A stretch of DNA of 64,000 nucleotides from Leisingera daeponensis DSM 23529 (GTDB lineage Bacteria; Pseudomonadota; Alphaproteobacteria; Rhodobacterales; Rhodobacteraceae): assembly GCF_000473145.1 (NCBI RefSeq), contig NZ_KI421500.1:3063725-3127724 (forward strand), written 5' to 3'. The position numbers and the translations under genes were made by a program. Under the pieces are notes generated by a model, which was not told the DNA's origin, made no database searches, and saw only the letters and a list, made by a program, of their open reading frames with translations. Shown here piece by piece: positions 40,557-42,799 of the stretch; position 1 is the first letter of the stretch; each line of letters begins with the position of its first letter.

Positions 40557-40729
40557 GCGGGGTATCCGGTGTTATTCTGTAACAAAGGCTCGCCGTCTTT
40601 ACGCCCAAATGCAACGGATGTGAAACAATTTCCATGTCATGGACACGTCGGCGTGAGAGTTTTGCAGCAAATCTTGCCGCGGGCGCAAGGGATGCGCATT
40701 TGTGGTTTCACGAACAGGAGGGTGAGCCG

Positions 40730-41416
40730 ATGGCGCAACTGAAGAAAATTCTGCTGGTTGATGACGACGAGGACCTGCGCGAAGCCTTGAGCGAGCAGCT
40801 GGTGATGACCGAGGACTTCGATGTCTTCGAGGCTGAGAACGGCCAAAGCGCGATGGAGCGCGCCAAGGAAGCCCTTTATGACCTTATCATTCTGGATGTC
40901 GGCCTGCCGGACACCGACGGGCGGGAGCTGTGCCGCCTGATGCGCAAGCAGGGGGTGAAGTCGCCGATCCTGATGCTGACCGGCCATGACAGCGATGCCG
41001 ATACTATCCTGGGGCTGGATGCCGGCGCCAACGACTATGTCTCCAAGCCGTTCAAGTTCCCGGTGCTTCTGGCCCGCATCCGCGCCCAGCTGCGCCAGCA
41101 TGAGCAGTCGGAGGATGCGGTCTTTGCGCTGGGGCCTTACACGTTCAAGCCTGCGATGAAACTGCTGATCACTGAGGATGACCGCAAGATCCGGCTGACG
41201 GAGAAAGAGACCAATATCCTCAAGTTCCTCTACCGCTCCAGCGACGGGGTGGTGCCGCGCGATGTGCTGCTGCATGAGGTCTGGGGCTACAATGCGGGTG
41301 TCACCACCCACACGCTGGAAACCCATATCTACCGGCTGCGGCAGAAAATCGAGCCCGATCCGTCGAATGCGCGCCTGCTGGTGACGGAATCAGGCGGATA
41401 CCGGCTGGTTGCCTGA
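40730..41416 (+). CDS. cenR: OmpR-family response regulator, CenR-like
   Basis: A 228-residue two-domain regulator. The receiver domain has the acidic pocket VDDDED, phospho-acceptor Asp56 (LDVGLPDTDG), and the switch Thr and Lys (MLTGHD, SKPFKF). The winged-helix domain ends with the RLRQKIEPDP-type recognition helix and GYRLVA. The sequence, especially the segments around LGLDAGANDY and RAQLRQHEQSEDAVF, matches what I remember of CenR, an essential orphan regulator of envelope genes in Caulobacter and Rhodobacter. No histidine kinase adjoins it here, consistent with an orphan. AGGAGG lies 8 bases before the ATG at 40730. The name is a family judgement. Confidence 0.8.
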   Translation: MAQLKKILLVDDDEDLREALSEQLVMTEDFDVFEAENGQSAMERAKEALYDLIILDVGLPDTDGRELCRLMRKQGVKSPILMLTGHDSDADTILGLDAGANDYVSKPFKFPVLLARIRAQLRQHEQSEDAVFALGPYTFKPAMKLLITEDDRKIRLTEKETNILKFLYRSSDGVVPRDVLLHEVWGYNAGVTTHTLETHIYRLRQKIEPDPSNARLLVTESGGYRLVA

Positions 41417-41424
41417 GACACGCG

Positions 41425-41438
41425 TTGAGCCAGATCAA
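41425..41438 (+). promoter_or_regulatory. FNR/FnrL-type binding site (candidate)
   Basis: TTGAGCCAGATCAA matches the FNR-family consensus TTGAT-N4-ATCAA with one mismatch. It begins 9 bases after the cenR stop. Its centre is 41.5 bases upstream of 41473, and TAGACT at 41461-41466 would be the -10 element, the class II activator geometry. The transcript would run into the terminator at 41520-41548. Confidence 0.55.
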
Positions 41439-41472
41439 AGAAGACACTAGAGTTCATCTTTAGACTGTATTC

Positions 41473-41548
41473 GATCCCGCGCATATCCGGGTTACGATAT
41501 GCACCTCCCTGTTGGACTTGGCCGGGCCTTCTGCCCGGCCTTTTTTTT
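41473..41548 (+). ncRNA. Candidate FNR-controlled small RNA
   Basis: About 76 bases with no coding potential between cenR and xthA. The first hairpin is GCATATC (41481-41487) with GATATGC (41496-41502), a perfect 7-bp stem. A single-stranded stretch containing ACCTCCCTG (41503-41511), complementary to Shine-Dalgarno sequence, follows. The third part is a strong terminator hairpin with eight T (41520-41548). Hairpin, exposed anti-SD, terminator is a typical trans-acting small RNA layout. The 5' end is inferred from the FNR-type box and -10 candidate. A long cenR 3' untranslated region is the alternative. Confidence 0.5.
41520..41548 (+). terminator. Rho-independent terminator upstream of xthA
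   Basis: GGCCGGGC (41520-41527) pairs with GCCCGGCC (41533-41540) around CTTCT, followed by eight T. It stands 104 bases after cenR and 103 before xthA. Confidence 0.95.
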
Positions 41549-41650
41549 GGAACCGGGCCGCACCGGGCCTTTGCGCAATTCCTCTCTGGCCCTTCCTGGC
41601 CGGGGCGGGCAGTATCGCGCCCGAACCCGGATTTCATGATGAGGCGCGCG

Positions 41651-42439
41651 ATGCCATTTACCCTTGCCACCTGGAACATCAACTCGGTCCGCCTGCGCGA
41701 GCCGATTGTGCAGAAGCTTTTGCAGGAAGAAGGGCCGGATGTGCTGTGCCTGCAGGAGTGCAAAAGCCCGGTGGAGAAGATCCCGGTGGAGGGGTTTGCG
41801 GCGCTCGGCTACCGCCACATGATTGCGCGCGGGCAGAAGGGGTATAACGGCGTTGCAATCCTGTCGCGGCTGCCGATCGAGGATGCCGGGGAGCAGGACT
41901 TTGCCGCCCTTGGCCATGCCAGGCATGTGGCCGGCCGGCTGGAGAACGGGGTGGTGATCCACAACTTCTATGTGCCGGCGGGCGGCGACGTGCCGGACCG
42001 GGAGGTGAATGAAAAGTTCGGCCAGAAGCTGGACTACCTGACAGCCATGCGCGACTGGTTCCATGCGGACAAGCCGGAGAAATCCATTCTCGTAGGCGAC
42101 CTGAACATCGCGCCGCGCGAGGATGACGTCTGGGATCACAAGAAGCTGCTGAAGGTGGTGAGCCACACGCCCGTGGAGGTCGAGCATCTGGCCGACACCC
42201 AGGAGGCGGGCGGCTGGATCGACATCACCCGCCGCGATATCCCCGGGGGCAAGCTCTACAGCTGGTGGTCTTACCGCGCGCGCGACTGGGATGCGGCGGA
42301 CAAGGGGCGGCGGCTGGATCATGTCTGGGCGACACCGGATATTGCCGGGGCGGGCCATTCCAGCCGCATCCTGCGCGATGCCCGCGGCTGGGAAAAACCC
42401 AGCGACCACGCGCCGGTGTTTGCAACCTTCGATCTGTGA
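41651..42439 (+). CDS. xthA: Exodeoxyribonuclease III
   Basis: A 262-residue AP endonuclease/3'-exonuclease of the ExoIII family. The N-terminal ATWNINSVR, catalytic Glu in LCLQECK (about residue 35), a VGDLNIAP motif (about 150) and the C-terminal RLDHVW and KPSDHAPV elements are all present in order. It repairs abasic sites and oxidised 3' ends. GAGG sits 6 bases before the ATG at 41651; an ATG five codons earlier lacks such a site. The upstream region is closed off by the terminator at 41520-41548, so it has its own promoter. Confidence 0.95.
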   Translation: MPFTLATWNINSVRLREPIVQKLLQEEGPDVLCLQECKSPVEKIPVEGFAALGYRHMIARGQKGYNGVAILSRLPIEDAGEQDFAALGHARHVAGRLENGVVIHNFYVPAGGDVPDREVNEKFGQKLDYLTAMRDWFHADKPEKSILVGDLNIAPREDDVWDHKKLLKVVSHTPVEVEHLADTQEAGGWIDITRRDIPGGKLYSWWSYRARDWDAADKGRRLDHVWATPDIAGAGHSSRILRDARGWEKPSDHAPVFATFDL

Positions 42440-42799
42440 CAGCGGGCGGGGCGGGGGCTCCCGCCTGATCCGGGTCCTCCGCTGAATGACCCTTCTCCGT
42501 TGGGCCGCACGCCGCGCGGCAGCGCGGCGTGCGGCCCAACGCCGCCAGGGGGCTGGCGCAGCCAGGGCCAGCCAGCGGGGGCGGGAGCGCGCGGTCGGGA
42601 TCATCAGCGGCAGCCCCGCGATGCGGCTGTAATGCCCCGGGGATTTGCATGCCGGTTGCGGGCGGCATCATCCGGGCGCATCAGCCGTTCCGATGCGGCA
42701 CGGAGGTCAGACCGGGGCCGTGCCGTGACCAACTCCTCTCTTGGTTTCCGGCGCTTAGGATTCCATATAGGGGGGAAGTTCCAAGCGGAGAACAAACTT
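42440..42799. other. 360-base intergenic region with a palindromic repeat
   Basis: The left 150 bases consist mainly of the palindromic element at 42457-42588 (separate entry), following xthA. The right part (42600-42799) is unremarkable until a less GC-rich stretch near 42760-42799. There GGAG lies 9 bases before the thioredoxin-family gene, whose promoter should be here. I see no credible small gene. Confidence 0.5.
42457..42588. repeat. Nested palindromic intergenic element
   Basis: The core is a perfect 19-bp inverted repeat with a 4-base loop: GTTGGGCCGCACGCCGCGC at 42499-42517 and its complement at 42522-42540. Outer arms GCTCCCGCC (42457-42465) and GGCGGGAGC (42580-42588) are also exactly complementary. 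The element follows the xthA stop. The arm words GTTGGGC and GGCGGGAG recur in the hairpin cluster at 52498-52680, which suggests a dispersed repeat family. Confidence 0.8.

Follow-up and report, generated by a model that had tools for sequence, protein, structure and literature searches.

The RNA encoded immediately behind cenR in Leisingera daeponensis DSM 23529 is a cenR-linked copy of the known small RNA SorX, and two routes probably lead to it: RNase E would cut it from the cenR mRNA, of which it forms the 3′ end, and a class II FNR-type promoter of its own would start it directly. Four points are shown by sequence analysis and genome comparison: the identity of the RNA as SorX, an FNR-type box and −10 element held at a fixed spacing, the presence of an FnrL gene in the genome, and covariation in a stem (S1) at the SorX 5′ end. 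The analysis started from a window, a 64-kb stretch of this genome, and coordinates are positions in that window.

The host gene of the 3′-UTR form of SorX, cenR (the ompR-1 or RSP_0847 homologue; 40730–41416, plus strand), is an open frame the start codon of which is an inner ATG of a longer frame (40634–41416). The gene name follows the earlier note on this DNA and the literature, from which we take RSP_0847 to be CenR. All 80 loci kept from a protein search with cenR are relatives, with 86–99% identity.

All the elements that follow lie on the same strand. An FNR/FnrL-type box, TTGAGCCAGATCAA (41425–41438), is centred at 41431.5 and followed after 22 nt by the −10 element TAGACT (41461–41466). 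Adding 41.5 to the box centre puts the predicted start of an FNR-dependent transcript at 41473–41474, the position homologous to the processed SorX 5′ end; the Rfam SorX model starts at 41474. SorX itself (41474–41546) begins with CCCG (41476–41479), assigned by a swap test described below as the 5′ strand of a pseudoknot stem, S1, and followed by a one-base loop at 41480. Stem S2, for which the Rfam match, the fold and the swap test agree, pairs GCATATC (41481–41487) with GATATGC (41496–41502) over 7 bp, and its hairpin loop opens with the 3′ strand of S1, CGGG (41488–41491). Next comes a stretch that is unpaired in the fold and has an anti-Shine-Dalgarno sequence, ACCTCCCTG (41503–41511), which is also kept in the Rfam consensus, and then an intrinsic terminator (41520–41548) made of an 8-bp stem (41520–41540) and eight T (41541–41548). 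The fold of 41473–41548 is more stable than that of shuffled sequences (z = −2.8). The box, TAGACT, 7-bp hairpin, unpaired stretch and terminator with eight T had all been read from the letters before, and each is present where it was placed.

The stretch 41474–41546 matches Rfam family RF02784 (SorX) over model positions 1–73 of 73, with 93.9 bits against a cut-off of 46.6 and E = 1.7e-23 (3.5e-22 over the whole 64-kb window); it is the only Rfam match above a cut-off in the window. Its position is that of the SorX family, with the cenR stop ending at 41416 and SorX beginning at 41474 on the same strand. The earlier note had proposed a small RNA behind cenR with an anti-Shine-Dalgarno loop: the RNA is real and this stretch is conserved, but it is SorX and not new.

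In Rhodobacter sphaeroides, SorX (RSs2461) is a 75-nt RNA that RNase E derives from the 3′ UTR of ompR-1 (RSP_0847) by way of a 116-nt precursor, according to the parts of PMC6238624 and PMC8625941 consulted. PMC3320616 (Table 2) lists it as sharing an RpoHI/II promoter and a transcript with RSP_0847; it is described as induced by singlet oxygen and dependent on Hfq (PMC9438474, PMC3320616), and as an inhibitor of the polyamine transporter gene potA (PMC9438474). The portions of this literature consulted credit SorX to RpoH factors, not to FnrL, and a discussion section considers it reasonable that UTR-derived small RNAs share the promoter of their mRNA (PMC8625941). SorX is thus a standard example of a small RNA derived from a 3′ UTR. 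The Leisingera copy shares with RSs2461 the RNA family (over the whole model), the host gene family, the anti-Shine-Dalgarno stretch and the terminator. It differs in having a stronger box (19.0 versus 8.3 bits on the matrix introduced below) and a predicted start that coincides with the SorX 5′ end, whereas in R. sphaeroides SorX starts 35 nt beyond TATAAA and RNase E cutting produces the published 5′ end.

A SorX match was found in 188 of 198 Rhodobacteraceae genomes, one per genus, and was above the cut-off in 157; a class-wide sample of 115 genomes gave a weak match in 38 and only 2 above the cut-off, both Rhodobacteraceae. For comparison of loci we took the top match from each of 130 genomes out of the 157, working down the scores almost in sequence, so that the sample leans to strong SorX matches; the other 27 genomes, including G028 (matches near contig ends), were left out. 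The CenR C terminus was recognised upstream of SorX in 125 of the 130 loci and the other five were dropped, leaving a main set of 125 cenR–SorX loci, each from another genus. Paired SorX copies above the cut-off, within about 650 nt of each other, occur in five places (G022:C183, G148:C3, G182:C35, G190:C76 and G230:C3).

The FNR-type box is conserved in a large minority of these loci. A perfect TTGAY-N4-RTCAA lies between the cenR stop and SorX in 31 of the 125, compared with a mean of 0.08 and a maximum of 1 in 200 dinucleotide shuffles; allowing one mismatch gives 41 loci (shuffles: mean 1.34, maximum 5). The choice of a motif by eye was avoided with a matrix built from 25 of the 28 sites in R. 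sphaeroides FnrL ChIP-chip peaks (PMC2908626 Table 2), from which three low-scoring sites were excluded and a low-scoring hemN site retained, with a threshold of 11.5 bits, the third-lowest leave-one-out score. It finds sites in 44 of the 125 loci (200 shuffles: mean 0.36, maximum 3), and 41 of these 44 belong to the 100 loci in which cenR and SorX are 30 nt or more apart. The Leisingera box has one mismatch to TTGAY-N4-RTCAA and scores 19.0 bits on this matrix of bound sites; a box beginning with TTGAG, at phbC, is within an R. sphaeroides FnrL ChIP-chip peak (PMC2908626 Table 2). Most of the 125 loci lack the box.

Within the genus, the strict pattern of box plus SorX occurs in 17 of 21 genomes. 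The remaining four all have SorX; the box has a single further change in one and is decayed in another, a third has a deletion, and the fourth was left unparsed. An alignment of 20 loci from the genus shows the box and CATCTTTAGA conserved and the spacer variable. Across the family, the strict pattern is present in 66 of 394 genomes; the backwards-pattern control gave 0 of 394 but says little, as the SorX part was reversed as well, and the statistics rest on the shuffles. The 80 named cenR loci, which partly come from the same genomes as the first sample, include 22 with a perfect box and 8 with one mismatch, among them Ruegeria, Silicibacter lacuscaerulensis, Marivita lacus, Roseivivax, Shimia and a MAG named Paracoccus haematequi; 23 of the 80 lack a SorX motif by pattern and are unscored, and one of these, L189, visibly has the box and a variant SorX. 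The expectation that box and hairpins would both recur in relatives was borne out unevenly: the box is kept in the large minority described above, and the hairpin in nearly all loci of a set that was itself picked by the SorX model.

The box is accompanied by a −10 element in the arrangement of a class II promoter, in which the box is centred 41.5 nt before the start and the −10 element lies at a fixed distance from the box, with no need for a −35 element. In Leisingera, TAGACT follows the box after 22 nt, this spacing is conserved, and a scan of 41000–42000 found no sigma-70 hexamer pair; the box is at the class II position relative to a start that is itself predicted from the sequence. Among the 38 loci that have a box with at most one mismatch and enough room, TA occurs at offset +22 in 24 and at +23 in 8, and any other offset between 14 and 31 has TA in at most 5. 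With the matrix sites, TA lies 21–23 nt after the site in 36 of the 41 loci with room for a promoter. Aligned on the box, the TTTA columns hold 0.9–1.1 bits of information; aligned on the SorX start they hold at most 0.4. The distance from box start to SorX start ranges over 47–64 nt in these 38 loci (with one case of 25), and 22 of them are at 47–49. As the distance from box to −10 element is fixed and that from box to SorX varies, the class II FNR anatomy is independent of the processed end. This matters because 41473, the predicted start, is almost the same position as the processed 5′ end published for SorX: the distance to that end alone proves little, and the evidence for a promoter comes from the fixed spacing between box and −10 element. 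The claim that an FNR-type box and a −10 element stand before the RNA at class II spacing holds beyond this genome, as both are conserved across many genera. No conserved class II promoter of SorX is described in the literature searched. Class II FNR/FnrL promoters of Rhodobacteraceae such as those of ccoN, hemA and feoA have the same type of box (PMC2908626 Table 2) but serve protein genes, whereas here the product is a 73-nt RNA. In three loci (L045, L073 and L093, in genomes G196, G180 and G140, respectively), a perfect FNR-type box overlaps the cenR stop only 11–12 nt upstream of SorX and is thus too near to activate it as a class II site.

A candidate oxygen-sensing regulator for the box is available. 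The genome encodes an FnrL-type CRP/FNR protein of 246 amino acids with the cysteine motif CGDCPIRHRAVCARC, and contains 21 canonical FNR sites, compared with 5 for the backwards pattern. Among 33 chosen genomes, FnrL is present in 13 of 13 with a perfect box and also in 8 of 9 that have SorX but no box with one mismatch or fewer; the presence of FnrL thus does not discriminate between them. The box by itself does not separate FnrL from paralogues that recognise the same site. Of the ten genomes in the family sample without a SorX match, eight lack a close FnrL (G014, G033, G054, G059, G090, G102, G136 and G164); five of these eight are only 1.9–2.6 Mb, and genome reduction may explain some of them.

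Binding of FnrL near SorX has already been published for one species. FnrL ChIP-seq in R. sphaeroides lists 13 sites outside the upstream regions of annotated genes, two of them in putative promoter regions of the small RNAs RSs0019 and RSs2461; the effect of FnrL on these two RNAs could not be measured, as they are absent from the gene chip (all in the parts of PMC4263372 consulted). The table of an earlier FnrL ChIP-chip study has no peak at this place (PMC2908626 Table 2). Our search of the literature found no measurement of SorX at low versus high oxygen as a function of FnrL. We take genome G051 to be R. sphaeroides 2.4.1, as its SorX coordinate is 2,598,225 and the published one is 2,598,224 (PMC6238624). 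Its box, TTGCGTGAGATCAA, overlaps the cenR stop and scores 8.3 bits, below the threshold of 11.5, with TATAAA 22 nt later; a box beginning with TTGCG, at hemN, is nevertheless bound by FnrL (PMC2908626 Table 2). The published precursor end in this species (2,598,182) lies 2 nt before TATAAA and differs from the start predicted for an FNR promoter. A precedent for direct FNR control of a small RNA is FnrS of Escherichia coli, which has no sequence similarity to RSs2461 according to the part of PMC4263372 consulted; for SorX such control is inferred, and SorX, unlike FnrS, also has a 3′-UTR origin.

The loci fall into two layouts. SorX begins 2–23 nt after the cenR stop in 25 of the 125 loci and at least 42 nt after it in the other 100, and never 24–41 nt after it; an intergenic promoter has no space where SorX lies flush with the stop. 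A cenR tree of 123 loci requires a minimum of 27 changes in the box (mean 32.7 and minimum 26 with shuffled labels) and of 15 in the short gap (mean 23.2 and minimum 19). The tree was built quickly from under 400 nt of cenR, and errors in it inflate the counts of changes. On this weak tree, turnover is high, and the box shows little phylogenetic signal. Upstream of cenR, the stretch 40570–40729 is almost invariant in the genus, and blocks in it such as GGATGTGAAA and TTGCAGCAAATCTTGCC partly recur in other genera. It may hold the stress promoter of cenR–SorX; a search of this conserved region for an RpoH promoter of cenR identified no sigma-factor motif.

A feature that the earlier note missed is that CCCG (41476–41479) is complementary to CGGG (41488–41491) in the hairpin loop. 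We examined this complementarity with a column-free swap test in the 124 loci with a parsed S2 stem (one of the 125 failed). The four bases that open the loop have their exact complement within the 9 nt before S2 in 99 of the 124, whereas permuting these 9-nt stretches among loci gives a mean of 52.2 and a maximum of 71 in 10,000 permutations; the exact complement is absent from the other 25. Shifting the loop by 1–4 bases leaves 16, 11, 2 and 0 loci, against permuted means of 21.7, 8.5, 1.9 and 0.5. The two strands change together: CGGG loops are preceded by CCCG in 63 of 65 loci, and CCCG occurs in 5 of 59 elsewhere; GGGG loops are preceded by CCCC in 31 of 41, and CCCC occurs in 13 of 83 elsewhere. 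Rarer combinations behave alike (ACCG with CGGT in 1 of 2, TCCG with CGGA in 1 of 1 and GCCG with CGGC in 1 of 1), and their 5′ strands occur in no locus with another loop. The type of the inner S1 pair changes at least 15 times on a tree of 98 loci (shuffled: mean 27.1, minimum 22). A column-wise covariation test on a MAFFT alignment gave a weak signal, with standard S1 pairs in 0.81 of cells, 0.76–0.77 after a slide of one column, and a mean of 0.77 and maximum of 0.80 when letters were dealt anew. As the loop before S2 varies in length, S1 is misaligned in that test, and the swap test was used instead.

Where S1 is present (99 loci), the first loop measures 1–2 nt in 83 and the last loop 4 nt in 91, and no bases lie between S2 and the 3′ strand of S1. 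Such loop lengths suit H-type pseudoknots. The 5′ end of SorX thus appears, from these sequence comparisons, to form an H-type pseudoknot in the order S1–S2–S1′–S2′ with a covarying S1. S1 and S2 might instead be alternative folds that act as a switch, in which case the covariation of S1 would look identical; we consider this rather unlikely, as the loop lengths fit a single pseudoknot in most loci. The S1 bases are unpaired in the Rfam SorX structure line as printed, and the literature searched did not mention SorX and a pseudoknot together.

In the scheme that we infer, oxidative stress would lead to cutting of the cenR mRNA by RNase E and release of SorX, as published for R. sphaeroides and extended here by homology, and at low oxygen SorX would be started directly at about 41473 by FnrL or by a paralogue that recognises the same site. 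In this genus the predicted promoter start nearly coincides with the processed end, so that the transcript would need no cutting. By either route, SorX would begin with the pseudoknot, which may shield the 5′ end, and ACCUCCCUG would stay free to pair with the ribosome-binding sites of targets.

One alternative, in line with the R. sphaeroides publications, is that SorX derives solely from the 3′ UTR, cut from the cenR transcript, and that the box is a chance or functionless match. RNase E processing is documented for R. sphaeroides in the parts of PMC6238624 and PMC8625941 consulted, SorX lies within 23 nt of the cenR stop in a fifth of the loci, and the box is missing from most of them. Set against this, the boxes exceed shuffles more than hundredfold, a −10 element stands at a fixed distance from them, and the R. 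sphaeroides ChIP-seq study lists a site here (PMC4263372); we therefore hold an exclusively UTR-derived SorX to be unlikely. We give a somewhat lower probability still to repression, in which the box would bind an FNR-type regulator that blocks read-through from cenR or the precursor, so that SorX falls at low oxygen. FnrL does repress some of its targets (minus signs in PMC2908626 Table 2), and repression would suit the three loci with a perfect box overlapping the cenR stop, in which class II activation is excluded, but the −10 element 21–23 nt after the box in most loci is the anatomy of activation.

The dyad TTGAY-N4-RTCAA could also fold into a short hairpin in the transcript, and so might be kept as an RNA structure of the cenR 3′ UTR or precursor and not as a DNA site. 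However, in 17 of the 31 perfect boxes the inner position places C opposite A and so cannot pair: conservation follows the letters and not the pairing. The fixed-spacing −10 element would also be left unexplained, and we find an RNA hairpin highly improbable.

Production by both RNase E release and an FNR-type promoter remains our preferred reading for the Leisingera locus. We are evenly divided on its extension to the family, in which SorX would be a two-input oxygen RNA of Rhodobacteraceae, supplied by the cenR mRNA under reactive-oxygen stress and by an FnrL promoter at low oxygen, with one pseudoknotted product, a primary transcript that equals the processed one in many genera, and lineages that repeatedly switched between an own promoter and the 3′ UTR only. 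Were this so, a single small-RNA family would show a 3′-UTR RNA gaining and losing independence. The two layouts, with a promoter at class II distance or with SorX flush with the stop, offer a natural series for how UTR-derived small RNAs become genes of their own. If many relatives use the FNR promoter, SorX would link low oxygen with the defence against singlet oxygen, an arrangement that would fit bacteria alternating between oxic and anoxic life. The pseudoknot would offer a testable explanation of where the mature 5′ end lies and why it is stable.

As to targets, the duplex energies of the SorX seed with potA-like start regions of this genome are not stronger than with other starts, in a weak comparison: the background consisted of 105 first-ATG starts, taken from long open frames in the window whether genuine or spurious, and of the potA matches the best has only TTG starts and the second-best (L275) has no parsed start.

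SorY (Rfam RF02651), which has its own promoter according to the part of PMC6238624 consulted, shares the ACCUCCCUGUUGGACUU stretch with SorX but has another 5′ hairpin; its model reaches 40.2 bits in the window against a cut-off of 111, and the SorX model scores far higher there. Outside the window, the same genome has four more SorX-like places (L002, L003, L004 and L005), one of them above the SorX cut-off. At L002:1501–1581, behind a gene that by its frame reads as LysR-type, the same ACCTCCCTGTTGGACTT follows another 5′ hairpin; this is perhaps SorY. Finally, a 40-base inverted repeat, TTGGGCCGCACGCCGCGCGG CAGCGCGGCGTGCGGCCCAA, lies at 42500–42539 behind the xthA-like gene.
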